The position numbers and the translations under genes are program-made. DNA of 64,000 nt from Paraescarpia echinospica (lineage: Eukaryota; Annelida; Polychaeta; Sabellida; Siboglinidae). The notes below the pieces were generated by a model. The model worked only from the letters and a program-made list of their open reading frames with translations, did not search any database and was not told the origin of the DNA. The DNA is taken from assembly GCA_020002185.1 (NCBI GenBank), contig CM034534.1, positions 67,445,256 through 67,509,255 of the forward strand. The letters are read 5' to 3'. Below are positions 7,486 to 58,111 of the stretch, piece after piece (positions within the stretch are counted from its first letter, which is position 1; the number at the start of each line of letters is the position of its first letter).

Positions 7486-8966
7486 TTCGGGAATGTGTGA
7501 TTGAAATGGGAAATATGTTTTCTTTCACTGCTTACTCAATATAACTTTTCGGAAATTGTCAGACAACTATGGCGTTCTTAAGTTTTAATAATATTTTAAA
7601 CACTATTATCTATTCGCTCTTCCAAATTGAGGTGGAACGTGTTACTAAAAAGTTAATGATGTGGACACTTGTGTAATTATACAAACTGAAGAAGAGCTTT
7701 TCCGTGCGTCGCACCGGATTCCTTCCGTGTAACGACGTTTTAGTCTAGCACATTTCAGTTAGACCGTTTTAGTTAGAATTGTGCAAGTTTGGTCTGATAT
7801 GTGTTGTGGAGCGGTTCCTATATTGTCCGAATCTAGATGCGTGGTAGCGTTTCCGGCTGACTCACAATTTGCGAGGGCCCGTTTCAATTTGGCCCCAAGT
7901 TTGAGTGCGACCGTTTAGATATAGCTGAATTTGTTTTATGTCCCACAGTGAGTTGGCGCATTCTCGTATGGTACCTATATATATTATTGATTGGTGATAT
8001 TCGTATTGGCCTAGGGGTAGCTGTATTAGCACGGGGCAAAACGCAGGCCACAACGTAAGCTACACAAATATAATTAATTCATAAAAAATAATAACTGTAC
8101 ATTTTGCGTACGCTGTCACGAGTGTCTATTGGCGTTAAATTCACTCTCCACCGAAATTCGACATTTTGAGCTGACTATGTTGTGACTATATATTCCCGCA
8201 TGGAAAGCTTAGTTAATTTCCACGTAATCTGTCGCGTTTTTTTAATCTCCTACTATAGTCGGCGAAACAATGGCCACATGTTTCATGGCGGCCCGTCCAG
8301 GCCTAGAGCTAGACGGATGCATTTTATATGAGCGTTATTCTATATATGTCTTTCGGCACCTGGTGCACGAATCAACGTAACAAAATGTATCAGTTGACTG
8401 CGTAATTTATTGATTTAATACGGCGTAAAATGCTGATTAATAATGTCGTCGCTTTCCTTTTTTTCTTTTCACAGCAACTAATCATGAGAATTTATAGTCA
8501 CATCATTGCCAGTTTCAAATGTAAAAGTTCAGCAAAGAGTGAATTCATTTACACTTATATTCGTGATAGTGTACGCACAATTGTCAACTAATAGAATGTT
8601 CATAAATGTATCTTATGTATTCGTATTGCCATCGCATTGGCGTTGGAGCATAGCGGCAGACTAACATCAGTCCAACATGAAGGCAACACCAATTATATGA
8701 ACAATCAATGCGATTATAATTAACTATGTAGTCTAAGAAAAATAAACTACTGATTAATAACAATTCGCTTTCCCGGTCGTGTTGCTGCACGGCGCTGTCA
8801 GAATACGTATATTGTGGCGAGTCCAAGCCGTACTACAGCGAGTTCATCAGTATAAGGTGTGCGAAATTGGAAACGCACCAACACGCATTGGCACAGACAA
8901 ACCGTTGGGTCGGCCAAAGAGTGAATTTAAAGTTGCAGTTTAAGTTAAACTACCATTTGTTTTTAA

Positions 8967-9440
<474 letters not shown>

Positions 9441-9449
9441 TTTGAGAAC

Positions 9450-10119
9450 AAATAGTATATGATGTATGGGACATGTTGATTGACTGGTTATATTTGCATA
9501 TATCCTATTCAAAACATGGAAAGTCTCACAATGTAATTTCTACGCTGTTAGATACTGGGGATATTGAAAGTAATAAAGATATGAATTGATCAGTATATTA
9601 TAATATATTCATATTTTATATTGTCTTCGTTTTCGAGTATTTCGCCTGCTATAACATTTCAATCTATCTAAAGACTGACAGACAGAATAGCGTCTTCCCA
9701 TACTCTTGTCACAAATGCGATTACCGTCAAGCTGGTAGTTTTTGTTGCAGTTTATATACGCCAATCCATATACGCAAACCACTGAAAGGATATGTGAGTG
9801 GCGCCACATGGTGAACTGGGCACCAGGCTGTTGCTTCAACGAAGGTCAGCGGCACGTAGCGGGTAGGCACGAATAAATACACCTAACATATGCCGGTAGG
9901 TGGCGCGTGTACTGAACTGTCGTCATCGCTTAAAATACATTGTGGGAAATACCACTGTCTGTTCGTGATGTCAACGTCAGTTTTTCACATTTCTGTTGTA
10001 GTTTACTGTGAATAAAAAACAAAACTGATAATATGCATTGTAATGTGTCTTTAAAGTCGTGCGTGTGTAATTCTATCAACTTATTATGCACACATTTTGT
10101 AAAAACTTGCTGCATGATC
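9450..10119. other. Upstream flank of the RLR gene
   Basis: About 670 bp of unique-looking sequence with no convincing coding potential. Probably distal promoter of the RLR gene. Short frames on the minus strand (9609-9839, 9930-10115) lack recognisable domains. Confidence 0.4.
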
Positions 10120-22400: not shown

Positions 22401-25400
22401 AGTGACATTGTAGTGGCTAACAAGTGTTCATGTTATATTGATAACACAAGATTCTCAGATTGGTGAATCCAGAGTGATATTGTAGTGGCTAACAAGTGTT
22501 CATGTTATATTGATAACACAAGATTCTCAGATTGGTGAATCCAGAGTGACATTGTAGTGGCTAACAAGTGTTGATGTTATATTGATAACACAAGATTCTC
22601 AGATTGGTGAATCCAGAGTGACATTGTAGTGGCTAACAAGTGTTCATGTTATATTGATAACACAAGATTCTCAGATTGGTGAATCCAGAGTGACATTGTA
22701 GTGGCAAACAAGTGTTGATGTTATATTGATAACACAAGATTCTCAGATTGGTGAATCCAGAGTGACATTGTAGTGGCTAACAAGTGTTGATGTTATATTG
22801 ATAACACAAGATTCTCAGATTGGTGAATCCAGAGTGACATTGTAGTGGCTAACAAGTGTTGATGTTATATTGATAACACAAGATTCTCAGATTGGTGAAT
22901 CCAGAGTGACATTGTAGTGGCTAACAAGTGTTCATGTTATATTGATAACACAAGATTCTCAGATTGGTGAATCCAGAGTGACATTGTAGTGGCTAACGAG
23001 TGTTGATGTTATATTGATAACACAAGATTCTCAGATTGGTGAATCCAGAGTGACATTGTAGTGGCTAACAAGTGTTCATGTTATATTGATAACACAAGAT
23101 TTATTGGTGAATCCAGAGTGACATTGTAGTGGCTAACAAGTGTTCAAGATTCTCAGATTGGTGAATCCAGAGTGACATTGTAGTGGCTAACGAGTGTTCA
23201 TGTTATATTGATAACACAAGATTCTCAGATTGGGGAATCCAGAGTGACATTGTAGTGGCTAACAAGTGTTGATGTTATATTGATAACACAAGATTCTCAG
23301 ATTGGTGAATCCAGAGTGACATTGTAGTGGCTAAAAAGTGTTCATGTTATATTGATAACACAAGATTCTCAGATTGGTGAATCCAGAGTGACATTGTAGT
23401 GGCTAACGAGTGTTCATGTTATATTGATAACACAAGATTCTCAGATTGGTGAATCCAGAGTGACATTGTAGTGGCTAACAAGTGTTGATGTCATATTGAT
23501 AACACAAGTTTCTCAGATTGGTGAATCCAGAGTGACATTGTAGTGGCTAACGAGTGTTCATGTTATATTGATAACACAAGTTTCTCAGATTGGTGAATCC
23601 AGAGTGACATTGTAGTGGCTAACAAGTGTTGATGTTATATTGATAACACAAGATTCTCAGATTGGTGAATCCAGAGTGACATTGTAGTGGCTAACAAGTG
23701 TTGATGTTATATTGATAACACAAGATTCTCAGATTGGTGAATCCAGAGTGACATTGTAGTGGCTAACAAGTGTTCATGTTATATTGATAACACAAGATTC
23801 TCAGATTGGTGAATCCAGAGTGACATTGTAGTGGCTAACGAGTGTTCATGTTATATTGATAACACAAGATTCTCAGATTGGTGAATCCAGAGTGACATTG
23901 TAGTGGCTAACAAGTGTTCATGTTATATTGATAACACAAGATTCTCAGATTGGTGAATCCAGAGTGACATTGTAGTGGCTAACAAGTGTTGATGTTATAT
24001 TGATAACACTAGATTCTCAGATTGGTGAATCCAGAGTGACGTTGTAGTGGCTAATAAAGTGTTGATGTTATATTGATAACACAAGATTCTCAGATTGGTG
24101 AATCCAGAGTGACATTGTAGTGGCTAACAAGTGTTCATGTTATATTGATAACACAAGATTCTCAGATTGGTGAATCCAGAGTGACATTGTAGTGGCTAAC
24201 AAGTGTTGATGTTATATTGATAACACAAGATTCTCAGATTGGTGAATCCAGAGTGACATTGTAGTGGCTAACAAGTGTTCATGTTATATTGATAACACAA
24301 GATTCTCAGATTGGTGAATCCAGAGTGACATTGTAGTGGCTAACAAGTGTTGATGTCATATTGATAACACAAGTTTCTCAGATTGGTGAATCCAGAGTGA
24401 CATTGTAGTGGCTAACGAGTGTTCATGTTATATTGATAACACAAGTTTCTCAGATTGGTGAATCCAGAGTGACATTGTAGTGGCTAACAAGTGTTGATGT
24501 TATATTGATAACACAAGATTCTCAGATTGGTGAATCCAGAGTGACATTGTAGTGGCTAACAAGTGTTGATGTTATATTGATAACACAAGATTCTCAGATT
24601 GGTGAATCCAGAGTGACATTGTAGTGGCTAACGAGTGTACATGTTATATTGATAACACAAGATTCTCAGATTGGTGAATCCAGAGTGACATTGTAGTGGC
24701 TAACGAGTGTTCATGTTATATTGATAACACAAGATTCTCAAATTGGTGAATCCAGAGTGACATTGTAGTGGCTAACGAGTGTTCATGTTATATTGATAAC
24801 ACAAGATTCTCAGATTGGTGAATCCAGAGTGACATTGTAGTGGCTAACGAGTGTTCATGTTATATTGATAACACAAGATTCTCAGATTGGTGAATCCAGA
24901 GTGACATTGTAGTGGCTAACAAGTGTTCATGTTATATTGATAACACAAGATTCTCAGATTGGTGAATCCAGAGTGACATTGTAGTGGCTAACGAGTGTTC
25001 ATGTTATATTGATAACACAAGATTCTCAGATTGGTGAATCCAGAGTGACATTGTAGTGGCTAACGAGTGTTCATGTTATATTGATAACACAAGATTCTCA
25101 GATTGGTGAATCCAGAGTGACATTGTAGTGGCTAACAAGTGTTGTTGTTATATTGATAACACAAGATTCTCAGATTGGTGAATCCAGAGTGACATTGTAG
25201 TGGCTAACAAGTGTTGATGTTATATTGATAACACAAGATTCTCAGATTGGTGAATCCAGAGTGACATTGTAGTGGCTAACAAGTGTTGATGTTATATTGA
25301 TAACACAAGATTCTCAGATTGGTGAATCCAGAGTGACATTGTAGTGGCTAACAAGTGTTGATGTTATATTGATAACACAAGATTCTCAGATTGGTGAATC

Positions 25401-28400
25401 CAGAGTGACATTGTAGTGGCTAACGAGTGTTCATGTTATATTGATAACACAAGATTCTCAGATTGGTGAATCCAGAGTGACATTGTAGTGGCTAACGAGT
25501 GTTGATGTTATATTGATAACACAAGATTCTCAGATTGGTGAATCCAGAGTGACATTGTAGTGGCTAACGAGTGTTCATGTTATATTGATAACACAAGATT
25601 CTCAGATTGGTGAATCCAGAGTGACATTGTAGTGGCTAACAAGTGTTCATGTTATATCGATAACACAACAAAGTACAGTTACAAAATGATATTGAACAAG
25701 CTTGTCTGAACACTGTTTTGTGTGGCACAATTAGATCTGTTGATCCGTTTACCAACTATAGTTGTGTGTACTATTGAAAATAACTATAATTATTAAATTA
25801 ATACACCATAATCATGTTGACTATAGTGATGCATTGATAGTTTGATGTATTGTTATGTCCGTATTGATGAAGGTAGGAAACAATGTCATTTGTAGTCAGA
25901 GCCCTAGTGCATATATTCTGCTTTATATATAATAAAAAACACTAAGTATAAAGCAAGTTTGTTTAGGAATCCTTAGATCATTAATGGAGACAGGAACAAA
26001 TAAACTAATAAATAAACATAATTACTCAGATACATGCCACAGTTAATATTTCTGCTAATTTTGTATCACAGTTGAACAAATAAAAGTTAAGTCATCCATT
26101 TAAAGTGCAGCAGGATGTGTAATTGTGGTCTGATCCCTTTTGATGTTGTGTTTTGTCTGAACTCTGTCATCTTCTGTAGCAATGAAGATGAAGAGCTGAT
26201 TCAGTGCAGAGAAAGAACGGAAGGTCCTACCAAGGCAGCTTACTTACTCCTTGAAAGAATCCATTGCAAGAAGGATGACTACTTTGTGCATTTCATGGAA
26301 GCGCTCAGACAAAATGGTTACGAAGATACTGTTATTCAAATTGAGCCAGCCTACATTAAGACATGTAAGGAAATACAAGTATCAGCATTGAAATAACGGC
26401 TTTTTGTGTTATTTCCCATGCTTGTAAATTACTTGATACCAGCCTTACCAGGTGCACTTAATGATTGTAGCTGCCCCCCCAGGAATTTTGCTGGAGGAGC
26501 AGACATATTGTACTTCCCCCAGTAGGAGTCTGAGCCTAAATGTGGGGTTTTTGGTAAGCCTCAGGGGGATGCAATGAAAGGTTTCTGGGGAGGTTCAAAA
26601 ATATTGAAAGTTGCCGCAGAATATAATCAACAGCATCCCGTCTTCTGATGTCATGATCCGACAGTGGAGTGGTGCTGATCAAAGCCCTGGCTCTTAGCTC
26701 CCCCAATATTAATTTCGTTCCCGCACCAGTATAGGGCATGTAACGGGACTGTGTTGCCATGAATGCCCTGTGGGTTAGACAGTGTAGTTTGATGGCCGGA
26801 CTTAGTTATCTGGCTGGATGGATTAGACTTGGTTGTTTGATGGAGCTTATAATGGCACAAAGCTAGAAGGCTCGGTGGATTAGAATGGGTAATTTGGTGT
26901 GTGGCCTTATAATTTGAGAAAGTGATCAGGCTGGGTGGGCTAGAATTGGTAGCTTTGTGGGGGGAGCTTATAATGACATATGTGAACGTCCAAATTATCA
27001 CGATCTTTGTTTCCTGTCTTATACTTTAACTTGTGTTATTATTTTTGTTTGTTTTTCGTATGATTTGTCAGTTATTACTCTATTACATTATGTACACAGA
27101 ACAAATAAATATGGTTTTTTTTTATTCTGTTGTTGTCTTGTATCGGTGTTTGCAGTGCATTATAAGCACTGATATTTGTATTTTATTTTCAGGCAATATC
27201 GAAGGAGGTAGGACTGTGATTGAACAGATTCCCCGTGTGTACAAAAAGGGTGAGTTTACTTATTGCTCAAACATGCTCTATTGGCAACATTGCGTGATTC
27301 ACACATCTATATCCTTGCAGGCCAGGGGTAGTAGTTGACTGCACTCCACCTGGCAGATATCCTGTGCTATGTACAGAAGTTCGTTGAATTAGTTCTACTT
27401 TGTGCTAGTAATTGACTGCGCCAGTTGCGACTGTAACCGGGAGAAACAACAGACGTCCACGCCCCCTATCAAAGGGTGACTCCCAACATAACTCTCAGTC
27501 CGACCACTCACATGGTGTGTGTTCTAATAATTACTTGTACTTCCCAAACATTACATGTAACATCAGCCATGATTGGCTAAGATCCAAATCGCTGATTGTA
27601 GAATAGCAATGAGATGATGAAATAACGGGCTCAGTTTAACTTCAGCATTTGGACAGTTTGACCTGTCCCTGGGTACTAAGAATATAGAGTAAACAACAGC
27701 GCCCCCTGGTGTGTGATAATGTACATTCAAAGCAACTGATTCAGTGAACTTCCTGTTAATAATTACCCCCTGGCTCATTGGACTGGTAATGAAACGGACA
27801 ACTTAACATACGTCCTACATATTGCAACTGTTTTATTTTATCTATTTCCTGTAGCCGTTTTCACAATTCGCACCCACAACATTATAAATTGTCATCTCAA
27901 CCTATGTGTAAATGTTCATAATTTTATCCAGTTGCAACTCACTATACAGTTGCTTCAGTAACACAGCCACCTCAGAATTAAGGTCACCAAAGGACTGCCA
28001 CAAGTTATATCAGTAACAGTGCAGTGCAGTGGTGCAGTGGCTACAGCTTCGGACTCTTAACTAAGAGAACCCGGGTTCGAATCCTGTGCTGCCATGTCGA
28101 ACCTTGGGCAAGTTCGTTCATTCTACATAGCACCAGTCCACTCAGCTGTATGAATGAGTACCTCACTATAAACAGTGGTGGATATTTGTTTACGAATAGT
28201 CTTCGCAGATTAATTGCAGCATGGCTGGATGCTTCCCAGAGAAGTCGAGATGGGGTTCGATTGAACAGGTCTGCCAGGGAGTTAAATGTAAAGCCCTTTG
28301 AGCAGTCTTGAGGACTGGATACTGCACTATATAAGAATGTACCTTTCTTAACACTAAAATATGGCAAATTAAACCTACTAATACGATCACCTCAGTATTG

Positions 28401-34400: not shown

Positions 34401-37400
34401 AAGCGGGGGCAGAAGCAGCAAGAGGGGAGCCACTTGAACTGCGGAACTACCAGATAGAGCTGGCGCAAGACGCAGTTGAAGGGAAGAACACCATAGTCGT
34501 TGCGCCAACAGGAAGCGGCAAGACTCATGTTGCCTTGTACATCGCAGAGGTGAAATGTCACCACTACGTGTTATATTAACCAAGTGTGTATGTCATACCT
34601 CAGCTTAAACTGTCTGAATACCGGTAAAATCTGACCAACCCAGCGAACCTGGTATTAAGTCACACCAGCCTATTCTGCACACAAGTCAAAAATAGCTGTC
34701 CAGGTCATGTTCCATTAGTTTTGTGATTTTGGCAGAAATGCATAATTTATAATCTCACCTATCAATGTCCAGTTTTTTCCCCAACAGACAATCCAAAACT
34801 AATAAAATATCTGCATTTGCGAAGCCATATATCAAAAAACATTGGTCAATATGAGGCAAACTGACCTCGTTTCTCAAAATGTTACTTTTTACAAATTTGC
34901 TGTAAATAAAAAATACTGAAGATATTTAAACAAATGAGGTATCATTTTAAAACTCACGGTCTCTGGAATCCAAAATGGTGCAAAAGTCCATTTCACAATT
35001 TGGCATCTTAATACCAACTTTGCTGTGGCAGGTCAGAAATAATGTACGAGTGGTCGTGTCAGTGAGGCAATAAAGTGTTGCATCAATTGTTTGTGTAGTG
35101 GTCATATCAGTAAGGGGTGATGTGTTATCTCAGTGTTTGTGTAGTGGTCATATCAGTGAAGAGTGATGTGTTATCTCATTGTTTGTGTAGTGGTCATATC
35201 AGTGAGGGATGATGTGTTATCTCATTGTTTTTGTAGTGGTCATATCAGTGAAGGGTGATGAGTTATCTCATTGTTTGTGTAGTGGTCATATCAGTGAGGG
35301 ATGATGTGTTATCTCATTGTTTGTGTAGTGGTCATATCAGTGAAGGGTGATGTGTTATCTCATTGTTTGTGTAGTGGTCATATCAGTGAGGGATGATGTG
35401 TTATCTCATTGTTTGTGTAGTGGTCATATCAGTGAAGGGTGATGTGTTATCTCATTGTTTGTGTAGTGGTCATATCAGTGAGGGATGATGTGTTATCTCA
35501 TTGTTTGTGTAGTGGTCATATCAGTGAAGGGTGATGTGTTATCTCATTGTTTGTGTAGTGGTCATATTAGTGAGGGATGATGTGTTATCTCATTGTTTGT
35601 GTAGTGGTCATATCAGTGAAGGGTGATGTGTTATCTCATTGTTGCATGTATATGGACATATTAGTGATTTTGAATTTATTGTTGATTGGCTATATCAGTA
35701 GACATGAGATGACCATCACTTTCTTAATCTACTTAGATTTATTACAAGTTAGTTTTAATTACTTGTATATCATTATTATTACTATACAAGTACTATTTTA
35801 TTTTTATTAAGACATTGTGTTTTATAGTTACAACAGTCTGTAGCAAATTAATATTAAGGACGCCGACGATTACAAACTATCTCTCAAATATCAGTGATGT
35901 ATGACTGATCAAACATTCTATAAGTGGTGACCTTGACTAAGGGATCAAATCAGAACATCAGTGCTGATATCAGATGAAATTACCTTCATCTGGCCAAAAC
36001 CCACCAGATGAACGTTTTTAAACATTGATATGATGACATCAATATATTAACACTACCGGTCGGAAGCATACAATATCAATGTCCGACGCCAGACGAAACT
36101 GCCATGACCCCCCCTCCCCCAAATGAAAGTAATTTTGTCTGATGACTGATATCGGTCATAAACTTTCTGAGATGATCCTTAGTCACCTCCGAAATTGTAA
36201 GGTTGTCAATTTTTGCTGTTGCATTTCAGAACCACCTACGAGAGGCTGGTATGGAGGACGACGCCAAAGTGGCATTCATCGTGCCGACTGTGAGTCTGGT
36301 AAACCAACAGACGGAGATGTTTAAGAAATATCTCTCCAACAAAAGCACCGTAGGTGTGTGCGGTGATGCCACCAGTGCCAAAGTTTCTCTCGGTCGTCTT
36401 GTTCCCAACAATGACATCTTCGTTCTGACTCCACAAATCCTCGTGGATGCACTCGACAAGGATGAGGCAGAGATCGAGATCAGCAGTTTCTCACTGCTCA
36501 TCTTCGACGAGTGTCATCACACAGTCAAAGGTCACCCCTACAGCAAGGTGATGGCGCACTACCTGGATAAGAAACTGGAAGGGGACTGCAATCTCCCGCA
36601 GGTATGTCTTGCTCTTATTTGTTTTATATGTACATTCCTTGTGATAGGTTACAACCAAAAAATATAGAAGTGAGCAAAAAATGTACAGCTCAAAACGTGT
36701 TTCAAAACACTCATTTCAACAGTTGCTAGCACCCTTATGGGTTGTCTGATCCCATTGACCTTGATATGATGATATGTGAAAGCTTACTCTTTCGGCTATT
36801 CAAGATTATAAATTTCCTAATTATTCCTAAAATCACCTATAAACCATAATAATCGGACCTACTACCGTGACATTTCCAGTGTATTATAGACACAACGAAT
36901 GAATCTACCTACAGTTCGAGGCGCCACTTTCTGTTCTGATTTTATGCGTCATCTAGATTTATGCATAATGTGATATTAAATGATTTTATTATTAAAACGT
37001 GACATATACAATTCACGCCGTCACTCCACATAGCTGTCCATGCAGCAAGCTGGTACTGATTGGCTAAAAATGGATATAAAATCACAATTTGATAAAAAAA
37101 ATAATGTCAATTATCGTGTTTTGAAAACAAACATTCATTTGTGTATGTCGTTTAATGGGGATTTATTGCGTTTCTTGTATAAATTATATAGCATCCTAGC
37201 TCAACAAGAGTAAGCGAAAGTTTCACCCTTGTTTGGGCAAAATTTCAAAAATGGTGTTTATCATGTTTTGTCCTGAAGCCTGTCATATATTTGTTCCTAG
37301 GTAGTAGGATTGACAGCATCTGTTGGAGTAGGCAAAGCGAAGGATTTGCCAGATGCTGTGGACCACATCCTCAGGCTGTGTGCGAGTCTTGACGTTGAGA

Positions 37401-40400
37401 AACTGCGCACAGTCCAGGAACACAGACAGGAACTTTTGTCTCACACCCCTCGTGCCCACGAAGGTAGGTTATTCCATACCTCCATGCCCATAAATGTAGG
37501 TTATCCCCCACCCCTCGTGCCCACAAAGGTAGGTTATTCCATACTTCTGTGCCCATAAATGTAGGTTATCCCCCACCCCTCATGCTAATGAAGGTAGGCT
37601 ATTTCACAAGTCCATGAAGGTAACTTATTCCATACACTCCCATATCAGAGAATTTAATCCACACACCCCCATCAGTGAAGGTATATTATTCCACACCCCA
37701 TGTGTCCATGAAGGTAGGTTATTCCACACCCCTCATGCTCATTAAGGTAGGTTATTCCACACCCCTTTTGCCCACAAAGGTATATTATCCAATATAATAT
37801 ACCTCCAATATAGCTCTTTTTCATGAAGGTAGGTAATTGCACACCCAGTGTGCGCATGAAGGTTGGTTATTCCACACCCCATGTCCATGAAGGTAGGTTA
37901 TTCCACACACCTTTTGCCCATGATGGTAGGTTATTCCAAACCCATCATGTCCATGATGGTAGGTTATTCTGCATCTGCAATGCCATTATAGTGGTACATT
38001 ATTTTACCCCACTTCATGTGCTTAAATGTAGGTTATTTCACATCATTTCGCCCACAAACGTAGGTTATACTGCATCCGTCATGCCCATGAAGGTAGGTTA
38101 TACTGCATCCCTCATGCCCACGAAGGTAGGTTATACTGCATCCGTCATGCCCACGAAAGTAGGTTATACTGCATCCCTCATACCCACGAAGATAGGTTAT
38201 ACTGCATCCCTCATGCCCACGAAGGTAGGTTATACTGCATCCCTCATGCCCACGAAGGTATGTTATACTGCATCCGTCATGCCCATGAAGGTAGGTTATA
38301 CTGCATCCCTCATGCCCATGAAGGTAGGCTATACTGCATCCGTCATGCCCACGAAGGTAGGTTATACTGCATCCCTCATGCCCATGAAGGTAGGTTATAC
38401 TGCATCCGTCACGCCCATAAAGGTATTCCACAGAATGCCAATAACGCACAAAGTGCTACCGTCACTTAAAATGATAAAAGCAACACTAGTATTATAACCC
38501 CAACACATTATTGATAACAGCAACACTGTATTCATAGCACAAACACATGGTTGATAAGACCAACACAAGAATGATATGTGGTTATTATGTCATCAATGAC
38601 ATTAACACCATGGGGGAGGAAGAAACCAAATTTATTATGTTGCAAATGACATGATGGCTGCACCATGCTAGAACAACAGCAACAACACAACAGGGGTCTC
38701 CAGCCTCCAAAACAAACTGAAAAGACGCAGATCGCGTTTTAGGATCTGAAAGACACAACAGTGGTGTTTCCAGAGTTGGGCGTTTGCTTGTCACTCTACA
38801 CAACACCACTAAGCTCTGTTATTAACAGTCATAATCTAAACCATCATCTTTATGCAGATGATACCCAGATTTACATATCTTTATTTACATTTGGTGTCTC
38901 TTCTGAAGTCCTTGCACTGGCTTCCTGTACGATATCATATTATTTTTAAGATCTGTAGCATTACCCATCAGGCATTTTCCTGTAAGCAACAAGCATATTT
39001 ATATTCATTGCTTACTCTTATAAAACAGCCTATCCAGCTTCAATTATCTAGTTCTGATTTACTTTTGTTCCTAGAGTCAATACTAATATTGGAACTAGGG
39101 AATTTTCTGTTCCTGCACCGACTCTCTGGAATGTGCTCCCCCTTAGTGTTAGATCAGTTGAAAATATTATAAAATTTTGCCATCATTTAAAAACTTACCT
39201 TTATAACCTTGTGTATCCACCGTAGCTCCCTGGCATATCCACCTTAGCTCCCTGGCGTATCCACCTTAGCTCCCTGGAGTATCCACCTTAGCTCCCTGGA
39301 GTATCCACCTTAGCTCCCTGGCATATCCACCTTAGCTCCCTGGCATATCCACCGTAGCTCCCTGGCGTATCCACCTTAGCTCCCTGGAGTATCCACCTTA
39401 GCTCCCTGACATATCCACCTTAGCTCCCTGGCGTATCGATCCATCTGTTGGCGACTATAATATGGCTTATTGATTCTGACATTGACTATCCCTTTTGTAT
39501 TGATACACCTCTGAGCTTGGTTTATGAGGATTTAGGCGCAAAAGAAGTTGTTGTTCTCCTCATCATTCCTTCCTCAGGGGTGAGGCTGGCTTGGATACGT
39601 TGACATTTTCTTTTCTTTCTCCCTCTTCATTCTATCTCTTCCTCCTCATTGCACTACTTTCCTTGTCACCCTTCTCCATTCTCCTCGGTCTTTTGTTCTT
39701 TTTCCATTCCCCTTTCCATCCCTCCAGGTCTCTCTTCACGCAATCCTCCCACGTCAGTCTCGGTCGCCCTCGTCTTCTTTTTCCCTCCACTCTCTGGGCG
39801 TCTGCTTTCTTTGCCAACTGTTCTTCTCCCATCACATCTACTTTCCTCCAAGCATTTGTCCTGCTTGTATTCTGCAAATTTCAATCTTTGAGGAGCCGTC
39901 CCCACATACTGCTCCACCCAGGTATACAAATACAGGTAATGTTTGTGTTATTTCAGAGGAGACTAAGGAAGTTCCTGGCCGAATAGTTGACCCTTTCAAG
40001 GACGAGATAAATGAACTGATGCGGAGGATTGAAGAAAGACTGACCACAGGTATGTAACACAATAAGACTGACCACAGGTATGTAATACCATAAGACTGAC
40101 TACAGATATGTAATACAATAAGACTGACAACAGGTACATAACACAATAAGACTGACCACAGGTATGTAATACAATAAGACTGACTACAGGTATGTAATAC
40201 ACTAAGACTGACCACAGGTATGTAATACAGTAAGACTGACCACAGGTATGTAATACACCATATGACTGACCACAGGTACGTAATACAATAAGACTGACCA
40301 CAGGTACGTAATATAATAAGACTGACCACAGGTACGTAATGCAATAAGACTGCACATAGTTATGTAATACAACACGACTGACCACAGGTACGAAATACAA

Positions 40401-43400
40401 TAAGACTGACTACAGGTACATAATACAACACGACTGACAAAAGGTATGTAGTACAATGAAACTGACCACAGGTACATAATACAATAAGACTGACCACAGG
40501 TATGTAGTACAATGAAACTGACCACAAGTATGTAATGCAATAAGACTGACCACAGGTATGTAATACAACTCGACTGACCACAGGTATGTTGTACAATCAG
40601 ACTGACCACAGGTATGTAATACAATAAGACTGACTACAGGTATGTAATACAATGAGACTGACCACAGGTATGTAATACAATAAGACTGACTACAGGTATG
40701 TAATACAATGAGACTGACCACAGGTATGTAATACAATAAGACTGAGCACAGGTACGAAATGCAATAAGGCTGACCACAGGTATGTAGTACAATGAGACTG
40801 ACCACAGATACAATAAGACTGACCACAGGTATATAATACAATAAGACTGACCACAGTTACGTAATAGAATAAGAGTAACCACAGTTACATAATAGAATAA
40901 GACTGACCACAGGTATGTAATACAACTCGACTGACCACAGGTATGTTGTACAATCAGACTGACCACAGGTATGTAATACAATAAGACTGACTACAGGTAT
41001 GTAATACAATGAGACTGACCACAGGTATGTAATACAATAAGACTGACTACAGGTATGTAATACAATGAGACTGACCACAGGTATGTAATACAATAAGACT
41101 GAGCACAGGTACGAAATGCAATAAGGCTGACCACAGGTATGTAGTACAATGAGACTGACCACAGATACAATAAGACTGACCACAGGTATATAATACAATA
41201 AGACTGACCACAGTTACGTAATAGAATAAGAGTAACCACAGTTACATAATAGAATAAGACTGACCACAGGTATGTAATAGAATAAGACTGACCACAGGTA
41301 CATAATACGATAAGACTGACCACAGGTATGTAATACACAATAAGACTGACCACAGGTACATAATACGATAAGACTGACCAAAGGTATGTAACTCACAATA
41401 AGACTGACCACAGGTACATAATACAATAAGACTGACCACAGACATGTAATACAATAAGACTGACTACAGGTATGTAATACAATAAGACTGACCACAGGTA
41501 TGTAATACAATAAGACTGACCACAGGTACATAATACAATAAGGCTGACCACAGGTATGTAATACAATGAGACTGACCACAGATACAATAAGACTGACCAC
41601 AGGTATGTAATACAATAAGACTGACCACAGATATGTAATACAATAAGACTGACCACAGGTATGTAATACAATAAGACTGACCACAGGTACGTAATATAAT
41701 AAGACTGACCACAGGTACGTAATGCAATAAGACTGCACATAGTTATGTAATACAACACGACTGACCACAGGTACGAAATACAATAAGACTGACTACAGGT
41801 ACATAATACAACACGACTGACAAAAGGTATGTAGTACAATGAAACTGACCACAGGTACATAATACAATAAGACTGACCACAGGTATGTAGTACAATGAAA
41901 CTGACCACAAGTATGTAATGCAATAAGACTGACCACAGGTATGTAATACAACTCGACTGACCACAGGTATGTTGTACAATCAGACTGACCACAGGTATGT
42001 AATACAATAAGACTGACTACAGGTATGTAATACAATGAGACTGACCACAGGTATGTAATACAATAAGACTGACTACAGGTATGTAATACAATGAGACTGA
42101 CCACAGGTATGTAATACAATAAGACTGAGCACAGGTACGAAATGCAATAAGGCTGACCACAGGTATGTAGTACAATGAGACTGACCACAGATACAATAAG
42201 ACTGACCACAGGTATATAATACAATAAGACTGACCACAGTTACGTAATAGAATAAGAGTAACCACAGTTACATAATAGAATAAGACTGACCACAGGTATG
42301 TAATACAACTCGACTGACCACAGGTATGTTGTACAATCAGACTGACCACAGGTATGTAATACAATAAGACTGACTACAGGTATGTAATACAATGAGACTG
42401 ACCACAGGTATGTAATACAATAAGACTGACTACAGGTATGTAATACAATGAGACTGACCACAGGTATGTAATACAATAAGACTGAGCACAGGTACGAAAT
42501 GCAATAAGGCTGACCACAGGTATGTAGTACAATGAGACTGACCACAGATACAATAAGACTGACCACAGGTATATAATACAATAAGACTGACCACAGTTAC
42601 GTAATAGAATAAGAGTAACCACAGTTACATAATAGAATAAGACTGACCACAGGTATGTAATAGAATAAGACTGACCACAGGTACATAATACGATAAGACT
42701 GACCACAGGTATGTAATACACAATAAGACTGACCACAGGTACATAATACGATAAGACTGACCAAAGGTATGTAACTCACAATAAGACTGACCACAGGTAC
42801 ATAATACAATAAGACTGACCACAGACATGTAATACAATAAGACTGACTACAGGTATGTAATACAATAAGACTGACCACAGGTATGTAATACAATAAGACT
42901 GACCACAGGTACATAATACAATAAGGCTGACCACAGGTATGTAATACAATGAGACTGACCACAGATACAATAAGACTGACCACAGGTATGTAATACAATA
43001 AGACTGACCACAGATATGTAATACAATAAGACTGACCACAGGTATGTAATACAATAAGACTGACCACAGGTACGTCATAGAATAAGACTAACCACAGTTA
43101 CGTAATAGAATAAGACTGACCACAGGTACATAATACGATAAGACTGACCACAGGTATGTAATACACAATAAGACTGACCACAGGTACATAATACGATAAG
43201 ACTGACCAAAGGTATGTAACACACAATAAGACTGACCAGAGGTACAAAATACAATAAGACTGACCAGAGGTACAAAATACAATAAGACTGACCACAGGTA
43301 CATAATACAATAAGACTGACCACAGGTATTTAATACAATAAGACTGACTACAGGTATGTAATACAATGAGACTGACCACAGGTACGTAATACAATAAAGC

Positions 43401-46400
43401 TAACCACAGGTATGTAGTACAATGAGACTGACCACAGATACAATAAGACTGACCACAGGTATGTAGTACAATAAGACTGACCACAGATATGTAATACAAT
43501 AAGACTGACCAGAGGTATGTAATACAATAAGACTGACCAGAAGTATGTAATACAATAAGACTGACCACAGGTATGTAGTACAATGAATCTGACCACAGGT
43601 ACATAATACGATAAGACTGACCACAGGTACGTAATACATAATAAGACTGACCACAGGTACATAATACGATAAGACTGACCACAGGTACATAATACGATAA
43701 GACTGACCACAGGTACAAAATACAATAAGACTGACCACAGGTACATAATACAACAAGACTGACCACAGGTATGTAATACAATAAGACTGACTACAGGTAA
43801 GTAATACAATGAGACTGACCACAGGTATTTAATACAATAAGACTGACTACAGGTATGTAATAAAATGAGACTGACCACAGGTACGTAATACAATAAAGCT
43901 AACCACAGGTATGTAGTACAATGAGACTGACCACAGATACAATAAGACTGACCACAGGTATGTAGTACAATAAGACTGACCACAGATATGTAATACAATA
44001 AGACTGACCAGAGGTATGTAATACAATAAGACTGACCAGAGGTATGTAATACAATAAGACTGACCACAGGTATGTAGTACAATGAATCTGACCACAGGTA
44101 CATAATACGATAAGACTGACCACAGGTACGTAATACATAATAAGACTGACCACAGGTACATAATACGATAAGACTGACCACAGGTACAAAATACAATAAG
44201 ACTGACCACAGGTACATAATACAACAAGACTGACCACAGGTATGTAATACAATAAGACTGACTACAGGTAAGTAATACAATGAGACTGACCACAGGTACC
44301 AAATACAATAAGACTGACCACAGGTATGTAGAACAACGAGACTGACCACAGGTACAATAAGACTGACCACAGGTATGTAGTACAATAAGACTGACCACAG
44401 ATATGTAATACAATAAGACTGACCACAGATATGTAATACGATAAGACTGACCACAGGTATGTAATACGATAAGACTGACCACAGGCATGTAGTACAATGA
44501 ATCTGACCACAGGTTCATAATACGATAAGACTGACCACAGGTACAAAATACAATAAGACTGACCACAGGTACATAATACAACAAGACTGACCACAGGTAC
44601 CAAATACAATAAGACTGACCACAGGTATGTAGAACAACGAGACTGACCACAGGTACAATAAGACTGACCACAGATATGTAATACGATAAGACTGACCACA
44701 GGTATGTAATATGATAAAACTGACCACAGGCATGTAGTTCAATGAATCTGACCACAGATATGTAATACAATAAGACTGACCACAGATATGTAATACAATA
44801 AGACTGACCACAGGTACGTAATGCAATAAGACTGACTACAGCAGGGCATTTTATATTGAATTTTCACTGGGGGGCAATGTCTTTAAAAAAAAATGTAATG
44901 GTAAAAAGGGCAGTTTACGCATACATTAATGATTATGTTCATGCATGTATGAAAGCTTAATATAATGCGCTATTACCTTTGTATTCACATAGTTGTGGGG
45001 CCTACAGTGATGAGTGATGACTGCATCTTGGTATGAAAATAAATGTTACACATATATCCTAGAAACCTGTTTTATTATAACCAATACCTGCAGTAGTCAT
45101 ACAAACATGAGACGTATCCTGCAAGTCAGAACGTTTGACAGTTGTCTCTATTTGACTAGACGAGTTCTGTTTCTTGGGTGAATTTCCTAACGAATTCACG
45201 CTGTCCGTAGATGTCCCAGTACGGAGCTCAGCATCGATCTTCTTGTCTTCTCCAAGAATCCGACGACAGTGGGTCGAGGGTCATACTAGGTGGTGTCCAC
45301 ACTATTCAGTGCCACCATGAGTGGTGCATTTCTCCTGTCCTCATTCATACTGGTGCGGTGATTATCAACCACGTGGTTGTGGTGGCTCACATACGATCCT
45401 TTCGGTCTGCGTAGAGTGTGGACTCATACAAGCCAGAGATGCCAACACGTTCTGAACTGAACCTGTTGTGACTGGCAGAAGTTGGCGCAGTCTGACAGTC
45501 AACTTACAACCGAGATCACAGCCATCAGGCAGGAATGGCACATTCATCATGTTTTCCCACTACTCGGCTGCCCCTTCCGCAAAGTCAGATGCCTCATCGG
45601 GGAAAAGGCGCCTGACGACGCGCACATCATGCTCAATGAATGATCTTAGACTGTGTGACATCACTAACTCCTTCATGTCTTTGATGAAGTCCTCCTGCTT
45701 CGGGTGCATGCGTTCAGACATGTATTTGCAAGAAGCTTGCACGACCTCCAACTTGACTGCTCGTCTGTCGCAGCGGTTTGTACAAACGAACTGGTCATTA
45801 CACTTTCGTTGTGTTAAGTCCTCTTTTGTTTTATTGGTTGGACAACTCACTTTCTCCTCCCTTCTTGGGAATGGTCCACACCTCATTAGGTTCAACTTCT
45901 TGATTGCCGCATCAGTCACAGTGAGAAGATCGCTGATGATCAAATCACTCCATTGCAACTTCTTTTGGGGTTTTTCAAATATATCCAGGATGTCGCCCAT
46001 CAGTGCGGTGATCAACGTTTGTTGGTGGTTCCAGATTCTCAGGAACCCTTTGGCTTCAGCCTTCTCCTTTCTGTCACTGGTACTTTCTGGTGCCTTCATC
46101 TGTTCCCACACCATAATGCAATCTGATAGGTTATTCAGCACACCATCCACAAGCTGCAGCTCGTGCTGGGCAAACATGACATCGTGGTGCCGGGGGAACT
46201 GTTTGACATTCCCGGCCTGCGCTGACATCTTCATCCGTCTTGTTTTCTGGAAGAATCATACGAGTCCCGGTAGATTGGACTTCCTGATTCCCAACTAAGG
46301 TATGGTGCTGACGACCGACTCAATGGCTAGGTCAGATCGGTGTGCAGCACACCAGAATGTTGCTAAACCTCTCTGCATTTGGTCAGCAAGCAGACGCCAT

Positions 46401-49400
46401 GATCCACCTTGTCTGCCGATGTTTGCCGCTTCGCCGTCAGTGGTAACACCAATCAGCTTCGTGTCTTTACCTCCTATCAGATCCAGAGCTTTGTTCACCG
46501 TTTCAAGTAGTCCAGGGGCACCTTCTTCTCTGGCGAATGCATGACAACTGCTACTTGAGTTTTTTATTATACCCAAGTGCAAATTAAACCAAACACACTA
46601 AAACAAATAAAAAGTAAGCCCTACATGGGGCCGGTTTGGGAGAAGGGGACACACTGGGGGGAAAGTTGGTCTGACTGGGGGGGCAAATGAAAGGGCTGGG
46701 GGCGGGCAATGCCCCCCACTTTGTACATTAAAAACGCCCTGGACTACAGGTCCATAATACAACAAGACTGACCACAGGTATGTAATACAACATGACTGAC
46801 CACAGGTATGTAGTACAATGAGACTAACCACAGGTTTGTAATACACAATAAGACTGACTACAGGTACATAATACGATAAGACTGACCAAAGGTATGTAAC
46901 ACACAATAAGACTGACCACAAGTACCAAATACAATAAGACTGACCACAGGTATGTAGAACAACGATACTGACCACAGGTACAATAAGACTGACCACATGT
47001 ATGTAATACAATAAGACTGACCACAGATACGTAATATAATAAGACTGACCACAGGTAGGTAATAGAATAAGACTGACCACAGGTACGTAATAGAATAAGA
47101 CTGACCACAGGTACGTAATAGAATAAAACTGAACACAGGTACGTAATACAATAAGACTGACCACAGGTACGTAACACAGTAAGACTGACCACAGGTGCAT
47201 AATACGATACGACTGACCACAGGTGCATAATACAATAAGACTGACCACAGGTATGTGATACACAATAAGACTGACCACAGGTACGTAACACAATAAGACT
47301 GACCACAGGTACGTAACACAATAAGACTGACCACAGATAAGAAGGTATTGAAGATGTGCTTGCCACCAGTTCACATTTAATAGTTTGAAAATATTTTTCG
47401 CAGTTTGAAAATTTTTAACGCAAAATGTTCAAATTGTAAATATATACTCTGATGACGAATGCGTACACGCACCTGCGCACGCTCGCACGCATGCACACCC
47501 ACCCACACATTGAAGTAATTTTATACTGTTAAAGGACAAACACAAACCTTGTTCACAGATGTCAGGGAGAAAGGTCAACAAATTGGAGATTTATCCAAAC
47601 AACTTGTGGCGCCCTCTGACCGTGGAAGTGAGCGGTACACACAGTGGGTGAATTCGCTCAAACGTCCCATAGCAATGATCAGAGACTCGAACATGAAGCA
47701 GCTGGTTTTTGCATGCATCAGACATTTAAAGGTAAGTACCCTATGGTACATGCAAGTAATGGTGAAGCATTAATCATATGCCTGTAAGGACAATTACATT
47801 GTCGTTTGGACGGGCCCAGTGTATACAATATATATAAATACATATATATATATAATAACATAGGTAACAGCGTATTATTGGCTCACGTCATCAAGTCACA
47901 AAAAGAATGATTTATTACATGAACACGTGGAGTGCATTTCACACTTTAACCACTAAATATATAGAACATACACACACACTACATTGATTTCACAGGAATA
48001 AGAGTTCATAAGTGACGGGACGTTTGTGCTGCAAATTAGATCAAAGTAATTTATTAATTAGTTGACAACCATATGTATGGTGTGTTATTTTGACAGATGT
48101 ACAACGAAGCTGTACTCATCAACGCTGTATGTCAGTCGTTGGATGCTCTCAAATACGTACACGATGACATGGCACAGATAAAGCAGGCGTATCCAAATGA
48201 GACGGAAGTGTGGTTGGAAAACATCTTCAAAGGTTTGTTCTTGTTCATTTGCTGAACATTTCTCAGGGTAGATCATTTGTATGCAAATGAGTTTTTTTTA
48301 AGCATTTCCAACATGTGATGTGTTACCCTTTAGAGGCTTTCGTTGATGTGACACACTAACTTCTTCAGTACGCATTATCTCACTTGTATGATGACGGCAT
48401 ACGTCACATGTATGATGACGGCATACGTCACATGTATGATGACGGCATACGTCACATGTACTGAAGAATTTGGTGTCTTACATCGATGAAAGCCTCTACA
48501 AGGTAAAAAAGTCACATACTGGATATATTTAATTTCCATATATTTGTTCTTGTTCATTTACGTTTACAAGTAATTGGTATTTGCACGGCTACTAGTTAGA
48601 TTTTTAGTCAGTCCATATCTTCTCCAACACTGTGTTTATGATATTTAATTCTAATGTAGTATAATATGCTCTTACAAAACAAAATCCACATATACCCGAG
48701 ATGGGTGGGACAGATAATAGACACGTGAATCTGGGAAGTGCTGAGAGAGGAGGTTGGCTTGCCAGAATCTGAGATGAGTGTGGAGAGATTTGGTGGGATT
48801 AGGAGGGAGTGGAGAATGAAAGCAAGATACATGGGATGGTGGAGATGACAGTGTGAGAACAGCTACGGGAAAGGAATGGAAAAAGTCAAGGGTCAGTATC
48901 GATATCGACCTCACCCAGGAAAGAGTGGAACATTTCGCTGGTGATTTATCCAGTTGTATAACCCTTTTAATGATTTAGTATTAATGTTGTAACCTGTTCT
49001 ATCATCAATCTTTGCTACTTCTTGTACAACCAACTTTTTACCCCAAGATGTAACACTACAACCGAGAAGAACGCTGCTGTTTCATACATATTTCCTCCTT
49101 CTGGTGTCTAATTGAGCAACTGAAACTCTGGCTGAATGTGGCTGAATTAGGTTCAAGGAACATACAAATGTGGATAAGCCTTCATGAGGACGAGATCATT
49201 GTCTGGCCACAGGACACACCAAATAAGAGTTGTGACCCGAGAACAGAACTGGCATAAGTGGAAAGTAAAGAGGCTCTCTACATCCAACACAGAGCCCCTA
49301 CCATGAACCGCGATCAGGTATGCCACCTGCCCGCCATCTACAACCATACCATTCACTGAATCTGAGCTGCGTCATATGACATCAATGCGTGAATAAGATC

Positions 49401-52400
49401 CGCTGTAGACTGGTCGAAACATCACGCAAGTTTCAACATTTGCTCCAAAGCTTATTATTATATTTCTTGCTGTCTAACAATTACGTGTATGTAATTTGTG
49501 TTCTTCAGAAAGAGAAGAAGCTCTTCGGAAGATCAGCAGAGATGTTCGGTACAGTAACCCGAAACTGGAAAGATTACGGGAAGAAATCAGAAAATATTAT
49601 GAAGAAGACACCGACTCCCGTGGAATTGTATTCTGCAAGACACGTGCAATGACAGAGGCACTGGCTCGATGGATGAGAGAAACACCAGATCTAGAGTGGC
49701 TGAATCCAAAGCGGCTTGTTGCAGCCAATGCACCGACCGATAAAGGAGGTCTATTTGTATACATTCATACTTATTTTATTAGCAACAATGTAGCTAAATC
49801 CGCCCATGCTTATTGACATATTTTATGATTTGTTATTGTCCAAATTTTGTTTAATGTAACCATAATTTGCAAAGTTCCAAGCATTAATCAGCCCTACCAA
49901 ATATCAGAGAAATAGTAACTTAAATTCACGAAGGTCTTAAATCGGTTATTTGGGGAAGTTTAGTTGTTACAGTAATAATTCTTGGAGGTATTCAACACCA
50001 AGCCTTCATTTTTATAGATATAAATATCATATATATATATATATGTGTGTATGTTTCGTATCATATATGATTATTCATTATTCACGCACTTGCAGGAATG
50101 GAGCAAAGTGAGCAAGATGATGTTCTGCGATACTTCCGGGATGGTCATCACAAGATCATCATAGCGACATCAGTGGCGGAAGAAGGGCTGGACATACAAG
50201 CTTGCAACTTTGTCATCAGATACGAGCATGTCACCAATGAAACAGCCCGTATACAAGCGCGTGGTTAGTGACAACTACCCTTAAAATGTTATCACCTTCA
50301 CAAAATTTAAAGTGATCTTCTGGTGTAGAGCACTGTGTGTTTGGGTATCAATGAGAGCACTTTTGGGATGGTAGGAATACTAACTCCAACCAATGAGAAA
50401 AAGAATTACAACCAAAGATACACCGATAGTGCCAGTGAAGAGGAATGTCAGGTTTATCACAATTTATGGCAGTTATCTAGGCATTGTTAGCCAAGCCCAA
50501 GCCAACTAGTTCACGCTGATCGAGGTTGAAGTTACATGACTGCAACATATAACGTTTGCCTCTTCTCTCCACCTGTACATCTTATTCGCACATACAACCA
50601 TCTACCTTTAAACACACTCAATGCTAAGGTACGCAGGCTTCTAATGTTTTCAAAGTTAATACAAAACAGCTCTTTATTTATAAATCTTATACAAACTCAC
50701 ATTTAGCCATGCTGGCACAAACCACTCGAAGCGTAAGCCACTCAAACTCCCTACGTCATCATTAATGTTGTACTTCTGGGTGCTGACCTCTATTTCTAAC
50801 TAACAACATTACATCTCTTCTCTCTTTACAATATAATTAAACCGCTTAAAACAAAAATGCTTAAACTACAGTGATAACTAAACTATACAATGCACTGTCC
50901 AAACAAAAGTCTCTGATGTGACGTTCATCGTAAGTGCATCGGGAGCAGTCTTCAGGCTTCACTATGTGAACAAGTCCTATATATAACTCTGTGTCCAGCT
51001 CCCCGTTTCTGTCATTGCAGTTCAGATTGCCTTTCCAAGTGTCCTCATATATCGCTCCGCTTCTCCATTCGGGGCCACAGCGGCATTATTTTGTGATGTC
51101 GAAATCCTATGAACCTCGCCCAGTTGTCAAATTTCTCACTGTTGAAATGCGGACCGTTATCACACTGCACAACCTCAGGTATTCCCTGTCTTGCAAATAT
51201 TGCATCCAATTTAGGAATCATTGCCCTTGCAGACGTCGAGTGTAGTATCTCTATTTCAGGATACTGACTATAGTCATCAATGACTACAAGTATGTATTCA
51301 CCGGATTTGACAGGTCCACAGAAGTCGATGGACACTTCTTTCCATGGCTCCTTTGGAAACTCTGTCATCTTGAGTGGTTCTTTGTTCGTAGTTTCTATGC
51401 ATGCCTGACATGGCAAACAATTTTGAACAATCTTTTCCACACGCCTGTCAATGCCTGGAAATCATACGGTCTCTAGGAGTAGAGCTTTCGTCTTTACGAT
51501 GCCCTGATGGCTGGCATGGGCAATGTTCACAGCACGGTTCTGTAAAATCTCTGGGAGAATGATCCTTTTTTCTCTGAGAACTAATCCATCCAGTATTGAC
51601 TAATCGTCTTTGACACTCTTGTACGCAGCATATTTGGCATCTAATTCGTGCCACCTTCCTGAAACAATGCATTCCACTATGAGCTGCAGTTCCTCGACCC
51701 TTACTGTTTCATTCTCGAGCTTTTCTCGGAGAACACTCTTCTTTCCTTCATTCTGGTGGCTCTGAATCGCATTGATAATAAGTTGACTAGTCTGCAGATC
51801 TAGCCATGATTTGCTGTCTTGTTTTCCTTCAGATGGAGGATGTAGAGAAAGGTAGTTATTGAAATGATCACAACCCCAGCATATTGCCAATGCCTCTCTT
51901 TCAGTCTGGCTATACATCGACTGTCTGTTAGCACTCGACTGCCATATTCGATTATGGAAACCTCTCCATTTGCCTTCTTCTGTGTGAGAATTGCACCTAG
52001 ATCATGTGGGCTGGCGTCCATCACGAGTTCAGTGAGCAGCTTTTTATTGGATTAACTAAGCGTTTCCCAGTCTGCCATTCGGTCTTTCAGCTCATTGAAC
52101 GCTTGTCGTTGATCCTTTCGCCAATTCCAAGGACAATCGTGTTTCGTGAGGCGTTTAAACGGGTCTACTACAGTGCTGTACTCTGGAATGAATCTGGAGA
52201 CATATTGGGCCATTCCCAACATACTGCGCACCTCTTCAACATTCTGCGGCTTGCATGCGTGATAGCAGACACTTTATGTTCACTGGGACTAATTCCATCT
52301 TCACTGAAGACATGTCCATAGAACTGGATACTGCTCTTGAAGAATTCACATTTGTCTCTGTTGGCCGTGACATTGTATTCTCTCAATCGCTGGAGGACTT

Positions 52401-56140: not shown

Positions 56141-56212
56141 TTTTATCAAACGTTCTTGTTATTATTATAATGATAACAGTTACAGCATGTTCGTTTCAGA
56201 TTGAGAGACAGC

Positions 56213-58111
56213 ATGGTTCGAACGTACAAAAGAAAGTCTACACAGGGGTCGTATGGGTCTGAACGACTGGCGTTAGCTGTAGCGGCTGTCCACGAAGGAC
56301 AGAGTATACGAGGTACAGGGGCAGATTATGTAATACCAAGGCGCACACTAAAGCGTCATTGCTCTGGTGTTGTACAGCTCCCTGGCGCTGTTGCTATGGG
56401 CAGCAAGCGTTGCGTATTCTCAAGTGCCTTTGAAGCACAATTGGTAGATTACGCAAAGGAGATGGCCAAGAGAATGTACGGATTGACAACTATTTATGTC
56501 AGGCGTTTGGCTTACGCTGTTGCCGCAAAATTGGGCATACAGCACAATTTTGTTGACGAGCGTGGGCTAGCAGGAAAGGACTGGCTGTCAAATTTCATGA
56601 AGCGCCACCCAGAGTTGTCGATTCGTGCGCTAATTTCCACTAGCCTGGCCCGTGTCGAAGGTTTCAACCGTGATGCAGTTATGGCGTTTTTTGCTTTGTA
56701 CAAAGATGTCCTGCAAGGAGGGGATCACAGACCTACTGCCATTTGGAACTGCGACGAAACTGGCTTCACGACGGTAGCGAAGGCGGGGAAGGTCGTATGC
56801 GAAACTGGAACAAGGCAGGTGCGAAAGGTTTCGATCGGTGAGCGTGGAAAGAACATTACCTCGCTGTGCTGTATAAGCGCTGCCGGTTCTTACATTCCTC
56901 CGCTGTTTGTGTTCCCTCGCAAGAGAATGGTGGAGGCCCTCATGGACGGTGCCCCTACTGGTTCGCTTGGTGCAGTGAATGATCGCGGTTCAGGCTATAT
57001 CGACTCAGCTCTGTTCATGAAGTGGCTCAAACACTTCGTCACGATTGCCGGCTGCACCAAAGACCACCCACACGTACTTCTGTTGGATGGACACGAAAGC
57101 CATAAAACGCTTGAGGCAATCGACTTCGCCCGGGAACATGGGGTCATATTGCTGACATTTCCACCACACTGCACACACCGGCTACAACCACTCAACCGGA
57201 CATTTTTTTAAGTCACTGAAGTCTGCGTTCATCCGTTCATGTGATAACTGGCTTACATCCAACAAGGGACGTGCCATCACCCAGTATTATGTGATGCCAT
57301 TGTTTGAGCAAGCATACAGTTCTACTGCTACATTACAGTCTGCCGTCAATGGATTTGCAACGTGCGGCTTATGGCCATTCAACGACAGCAAGTTCGATGC
57401 AGAATTCAATGTACTTGAATTACCGTTCATTCAGCCTGTCGATACTCCTCAAGTCACAACCCTGGATGTGGTCGTCACTGAGGTTGCCGGCACCCGAGTC
57501 ACCACCTCTCCAGCTACTGCCCCGGCAATCTCAGCACCACACCACCCCATAACAACCAGCTCTCGAAGCTCCAGTCTGCATGTCGCTGTCACCCATGTCG
57601 TCACCGAGCACGTTGCCCCCACTGAAGCAACCAGCGCTCCAGATATCGCCACTGGTGTATCTGCACCGGCAGTTTCTGCCGAACATCCTGCAAGTCCTGC
57701 AGGATCTGAAGGTGACATTCGCGCTATTATTATGAGCTGCTCGTCACCACCGCCGAACAAGAAGCGTAAACATGTAGCGAGAAGAACATCCAGTGTCGTG
57801 CTGACTTCTTCGCCATACAAGTTAATTGCTGAGAAGAAACGCGACATGAAGAAACCAAAACGTTCGCTGATGGTAAAGAAAATCAACGAGATCAAGCTGC
57901 CCAAGTCAGCACAAGAGCCTACTGCTGGTCCGTCGGGGGTGTCAAACCAAGAAAGGAACACCGACGAAGACACAGAATGCGTCGTTTGCTGCGAGCCTTA
58001 CGCCAACAGCAAGTCCAGAGAGGTGTGGCTTCAGTGTCTGAGCTGCAAGAAATCGGCACAGCAGGCGACCCATACTACATTTGCCACATCTGTGAATCAG
58101 ACTCAGACTAA
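56213..58111 (+). pseudogene. pogo-family DDE transposase with C-terminal PHD-like finger, frameshifted
   Basis: ATG at 56213 (MVRTYKRKS). N-terminal helix-turn-helix region (~1-70), CENP-B-like second DNA-binding domain (~75-150, WLSNFMKRHPEL), DDE core: first Asp in NCDETGF, second in LLLDGHESH, third position in HRLQPLN, where Asn replaces the usual Asp. Right after that a 7-T run (57204-57210) gives a frameshift and early stop. The distal frame continues (ATCGLWPFN, then a Ser/Thr/Pro-rich linker) to a cysteine-rich finger (ECVVCCEPY, REVWLQCLSCKK); a second shift near 58060 separates its last part (YYICHICESDSD, original stop 58109-58111). Not functional as it stands. Confidence 0.85.

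Follow-up and report, generated by a model that had tools for sequence, protein, structure and literature searches.

The closest described counterparts of the structure reported here are the mirages of amphioxus, in which tandem repeats lie over exon-intron boundaries in Adh3, the globins BflGb6 and BflGb9, troponin C and PGBD5; mirages occur at both boundaries, reportedly leave regular splicing undisturbed, and differ in length between haplotypes (PMC3087553, PMC3902484). Intronic minisatellites are also known from earthworm metallothionein, with no junction copies described in the accessible passages of that report (PMC12783039). Here we describe a 64,000-nt stretch of the Paraescarpia echinospica genome (CM034534.1, positions 67,445,256 to 67,509,255; hereafter the window, in whose coordinates positions are given unless otherwise stated), in which an intron of a RIG-I-like receptor (RLR) gene is largely filled by copies of the exon-intron junction at its own 5' end. 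We consider this array a minisatellite of the junction, grown by neutral tandem duplication that is tolerated through use of the exon-most splice site, and assign this reading a probability of roughly 0.7.

Tandem Repeats Finder (TRF) delimits repeats of a 28-bp period at 40036-44841 (173.5 copies) and 46742-47336 (21.3 copies) on the forward strand, which also bears the gene. Alignment unit by unit resolves these blocks into 174 and 22 units, 196 in all with partial ones counted, of which 182 retain all 28 positions. Each unit joins 14 nt from the end of the exon at 39957-40049 to the 14 nt that open its intron (consensus AAGACTGACCACAG for the exon half and GTATGTAATACAAT for the intron half), and the array takes in the final 14 nt of the exon, from 40036 on, such that its first unit is the exon end itself together with the true donor. 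GT is retained in 157 of 196 units and the exact motif CAG/GTATGT (the slash marking the junction) in 74, while the last element of the second block is an exon half, AAGACTGACCACAG. The array is not continuous over 40036-47336, as had been claimed initially, but is divided into its two blocks by an insertion of ~1.9 kb at 44842-46741 (recorded without strand). This element ends in CAGGGC and GCCCTG and is flanked on both sides by the identical 8 bp GACTACAG (44834-44841 and 46742-46749); from these ends and the duplication length we take it to be hAT-like, and two of its reading-frame pieces tested against Pfam gave no match above the cut-off. Together, array and insertion occupy 97% of the 7509-bp intron (40050-47558), other sequence amounting to 222 bp.

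Neighboring units share a mean identity of 0.87. A 1429-bp block (40264-41692) is present twice in the array at an offset of 1383 bp with a single mismatch, which could reflect either recent block duplication or expansion, or an assembly error; given this near-identical repeat in the one assembly, it is plausible that array length is polymorphic between individuals. Further, a C at unit position 23 is found in the first unit and, toward the array's 3' end, in several more, is rare in between, and totals 8 of 196 units, as if the ends of the array were older and its middle homogenized. A search for copies elsewhere in the genome returned, among 23 matches, three weak ones (70-71%), all inside other arrays on inspection.

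The gene product matches the Pfam domain RIG-I_C-RD (2.9e-34) in addition to helicase and CARD models, its best PDB matches are RIG-I, and the best of its 1056 homologs is a RIG-I-like protein of Lingula, with 46% identity over 97% of the query. Among the 120 homologs listed, some of which carry no species name, none is named as a lancelet, and an amphioxus origin is rejected; COX1 was sought in the assembly and not found. Eight exons, spanning 36230 to 54085, join into a single open frame. They include a 163-nt exon at 37301-37463; the 93-nt exon at 39957-40049, for which the number 12 is only a label taken over from the initial annotation; the exon that follows at 47559-47731, entered at the acceptor TTCACAG/AT; and the last exon of the frame at 53436-54085, which encodes the RIG-I C-terminal RNA-binding domain. 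Spliced from 40049 to 47559, a phase-1 join, the frame stays open, and the alignment to the Lingula protein runs across this join (44% identity; 6 of the 144 columns are gapped, some of them just past the join). Read-through beyond 40049 ends in TTGM and a stop (GGT ATG TAA). A second RIG-I-like gene, on the same contig 48 Mb off (locus L053, G000:C4 19434730-19452628), has two matching introns at the same positions and phases, of 554 and 1380 bp versus 2493 and 7509 bp here, and the corresponding exons measure 163 nt in both genes for the preceding exon, and 99 versus 93 nt for the exon at the array. Phase, protein homology and the paralog support the boundary at 40049 as authentic, with the 5' splice site GTATGT at 40050-40055. 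At the two matching donor junctions examined in the paralog there is no array, and TA-rich repeats lie deeper in its first intron. As the paralog shares the intron and lacks the junction array, the intron must be older than the array, which is derived, and which genes of this kind can evidently do without.

Much of the initial annotation is borne out by these results, namely that the gene is an RLR, that the exon ends at 40049 with the array starting at the real junction, that each unit fuses 14 nt of exon to 14 nt of intron, that about 190 copies are present, that many of them keep a good donor, and that use of a later copy would append Gly-Met and an immediate stop. The strength of these donors was assessed with a simple matrix, our splice-site matrices being approximate animal frequencies. 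By this measure the intron contains 77 sites, counting the authentic donor itself, that match or surpass the score of that donor, and all are located in the array, leaving 76 later copies that equal or exceed it; the density of such sites is 10.25/kb in the intron versus 0.30/kb in the remaining window on the forward strand. The donor columns of the unit (positions 12-20) have a mean conservation of 0.890 versus 0.938 elsewhere, with 0.872 for the donor G, and since they are no better conserved than the other columns, nothing shows selection for working decoys. When the donor strength of minisatellite consensus units was compared with that of shuffled sequences, scores of at least 6 were reached by none of 17 random arrays, none of 14 in the window and none of five in loci L009 and L010, but this cut-off lies above the junction arrays too (5.3-5.9), and the comparison is given no weight. 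Telescripting by U1 at the array was also considered, for which there is no evidence beyond hexamer counts.

The array is not peculiar to the RLR sensor, as similar ones, at donors as well as acceptors, are found in the preceding intron, in an intron of a zf-UBP gene and at several of the sampled kinase junctions. In the preceding intron, a second donor-junction array on the forward strand (37442-38425, detected by TRF in several overlapping pieces) has units of ~33 bp, comprising the last 22 nt of the exon followed by a sequence beginning GTAGGTTAT. The zf-UBP gene (domain match 2.1e-8; locus L009) was reached via a weak DNA match to the 28-bp array rather than by random sampling; we presume that it is BRAP, the following exon start being placed, likewise presumptively, from the sequence of that protein. 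One of its introns consists of two abutting arrays, first of 34-bp donor-junction copies and then of 26-bp acceptor-junction copies (L009 4185-4977; G000:C9 about 1374184-1374976).

For a less selective view, 37 exons were drawn from 135 protein-kinase matches, picked by match coordinates and frame data before the DNA was seen. The splice-site filter was passed by 62 of the 74 possible junctions (34 donors and 28 acceptors), and a case was counted where a tandem copy covering the junction lay within 320 nt with a score of at least 16. Six of the 62 junctions have such a copy (L034, L059, L060, L064, L066 and L070), or five without the weakest case, L060, whose 22-nt match falls just at the cut-off. 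In L064 and L066 the automatic pick fell on a neighboring copy, the true junction being inside the array by eye, and in L034 the array copies have diverged from their junction. Acceptor-junction arrays are thus seen in L034, L059, L064 and the zf-UBP gene, and donor-junction arrays in the window, L066, L070 and, again, the zf-UBP gene. The acceptor arrays of L059 (reverse strand, positions 1-385, 8.6 copies of 45 bp) and L064 (positions 1-402, 4.6 copies of 88 bp) have copies that are 97-99% alike; in both, the true acceptor lies in the final copy; in L064, use of an earlier one would include an in-frame stop. In L070 (reverse strand, about 370-295) the donor junction is present in two copies only, CTAGCAG/GTGGGTGGAACATTGG and CTAACAG/GTGGGTGGGATACTGG, and resembles a junction array as it would look at an early stage. 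Three further candidates were not counted: a donor match in L057 with a score of 13, below the cut-off; L056, where the repeat is mainly of the intron side; and an array of CAG/GTGGGT units in L030, where no exon evidence was seen. The kinase locus L067, which lies outside the 37-exon set, has no junction array.

Unrelated pairs of 40-bp and 300-bp sequences from the genome reached the survey repeat score in 3 of 4000 cases, whereas 262 of 4000 random positions (6.55%; from twenty 10-kb stretches of one contig) have a tandem copy, 66 of them of low complexity, as do 10 of 74 positions 120 bp outside the kinase exon matches. In exon interiors the same test gave none in 390 (two sides per position). 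The kinase junctions do not exceed the random background (P = 0.22) and far exceed exon interiors (P = 5e-6); as to tandem copies, junctions behave like non-coding, and unlike coding, DNA.

We propose that the array started when 28 bp spanning the 5' splice site were duplicated in tandem. Duplication across a junction would put a second junction into the intron, and if the exon-most of the two is chosen, as we predict, the mRNA is unchanged and the array can grow neutrally. A splice-neutral duplication might then drift and expand like any minisatellite, through slippage, unequal exchange and block duplication, and the ~1.9-kb element would have been inserted later, into an array already in existence. 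The working site is expected to be the exon-most copy, that is, the first in a donor array and the last in an acceptor array, and may be picked through pairing of splice sites across the exon, here 93 nt long between introns of 2493 and 7509 bp. This would accord with exon definition, under which, given long flanking introns, preference goes to the splice sites nearest one another across the exon, and to shorter exons (PMC9225289).

Several observations weigh against this account. In that study, preference for the upstream site at near-equal strength is modest, at 60% over all architectures (PMC9225289), a margin at which splicing could leak to some of the 76 equal competitors and yield RNA with a stop; sole use of the donor at 40049 is itself a prediction from the sequence. 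Nor is neutral placement secure. Two of nine hand-listed arrays in the RIG-I-like gene straddle donors, where chance placement gives 0.09 (P = 0.003, post hoc and with some exon ends approximate), and four of nine kinase-flank arrays with a period of at least 20 reach a junction (P = 0.004, against a guessed rate of 0.08). Both excesses would fit a hotspot or selective retention.

The first of these possibilities, that junctions are mutational hotspots for tandem duplication, for example by way of transcription-linked breaks or AG/GT microhomology, draws on both placement excesses and on the single zf-UBP intron with arrays at each of its junctions. The kinase survey counts against it, as its six cases among 62 are not above the 6.55% background, nor do kinase junctions exceed introns of the same loci, where 10 of 74 positions have a tandem copy, and the two most striking genes came to light by routes other than random sampling. 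We regard a hotspot as unlikely, while neutral growth of a junction minisatellite remains our preferred explanation.

The initial annotation raised the possibility that the array adjusts the output of full-length sensor, with decoy donors diverting some transcripts to immediate-stop RNAs in a proportion set by copy number. Here the 76 competing donors are relevant, as is the GGT ATG TAA that follows from their use; moreover, copies 2-8 as donors give predicted exons of 121-289 nt, presumably within reach of exon definition. Against this, the donor columns are not preferentially conserved, unrelated genes have arrays of this type, and both matching junctions of the RLR paralog are free of them. 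Since the array is neither specific to this gene nor conserved at its donors, and is lacking in the paralog, we find tuning of antiviral sensitivity improbable and, as far as the sequence permits judgment, unsupported.

Recursive splicing, in which each CAG/GT would be dual-specific and the exon would be spliced from copy to copy, each step recreating the junction until no intron is left, is conceivable in that 74 of 196 units have the exact CAG/GTATGT and most have GT after AG, so that a step regenerates the same junction; dual-specific sites in tandem repeats are, moreover, documented for UBC (PMC10809524). Yet the sequence before the AGs is pyrimidine-poor, with a mean fraction of 0.41 and a maximum of 0.59 over 196 units, compared with 0.53-0.76 at seven acceptors of the gene, ranges which overlap slightly, and we judge this route very improbable. 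Least probable of all is that the array, or most of its length, is an assembly artefact, as the 1429-bp block present twice with one mismatch might suggest, given that adjacent units differ, unlike the product of a simple assembly loop, and that an insertion with a clean 8-bp duplication sits within the array.

Tandem repetition is also evident elsewhere in the window. A 36-bp array of 158 copies (14587-20281) leaves more than 1000 codons open in one frame per strand and adjoins no recognized exon; a 72-bp array at 21154-25668 has a higher-order period of 216 bp with 96-98% matches. Approximately 2 kb appears duplicated at about 5743-9459, where one 14-bp repeat, along with near-identical reading frames, reappears at a spacing of 1992 bp; a 43-bp array at 247-718 likewise reappears at 7029-7481. 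Downstream of the RIG-I-like gene, at 56177-57208, lies an open frame resembling DDE_1 transposases, in which a DNA-binding match of Tc5 type is weak (pogo/Tc5-like).

With 77 donors of equal or better score in the intron, splice-site strength is by itself insufficient to explain how a single one would be picked. Natural arrays of identical donor or acceptor sites, present in several genes of one species, would allow exon definition, proximity and leakage to be measured from RNA, and they suggest a simple route by which introns may lengthen from their own ends. More tentatively, and at somewhat under even odds, we suggest a broader view, in which splice junctions of this animal undergo tandem duplication about as readily as its non-coding sequence does, about one junction in ten lies beside its own copies, and entire introns consist of copies of their own ends, with the real site picked from among dozens of equals by position alone and always as the copy nearest the exon. 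This would amount to a natural experiment on exon definition.

Among known systems, two differ in kind from the present array. The dual-specific arrays of UBC share with it tandem units containing AG/GT; introns of the UBC type, however, have repeat units at both ends and a length that is a multiple of the unit (PMC10809524), whereas here the acceptor is outside the array, which ends at 47336 in an intron that ends at 47558 and whose 7509 bp are not a multiple of 28, such that an intron of that type can be rejected. Intron gain by tandem duplication of an AGGT proto-splice site (PMC2891723; the idea is attributed to Rogers in PMC3087553) likewise involves duplication of splice-like sequence that is tolerated because the copy is spliced out, but the same position and phase in the paralog rule out an intron newly gained in this way. 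The amphioxus mirages are closer. In both, the array overlaps an authentic boundary, which in our case is supported by frame, homology and paralog, and the unit combines exon with intron sequence; both types occur at 5' and 3' boundaries, and many, though not all, copies keep the splice signal (here GT in 157 of 196). The 10-72 bp units of amphioxus Adh3 bracket the 28 bp found here. They differ in that 196 units are present here as against three and six in two BflGb6 haplotypes, that the sequence points to a lophotrochozoan and not to an amphioxus, the RLR having its best homolog in Lingula (46%), and that several genes and a background control were considered. Since those traits of mirages that could be tested were found in the array, we file it among them. 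A literature search by title and abstract, in which subscription journals were mostly not covered, found no such junction arrays outside amphioxus, and the phenomenon, found described there alone, is hereby extended to a distant animal group. From its sequence, the array appears to belong to the mirage kind in an animal far removed from amphioxus, and to stand out there both for its copy number and for the apparent frequency of such arrays.

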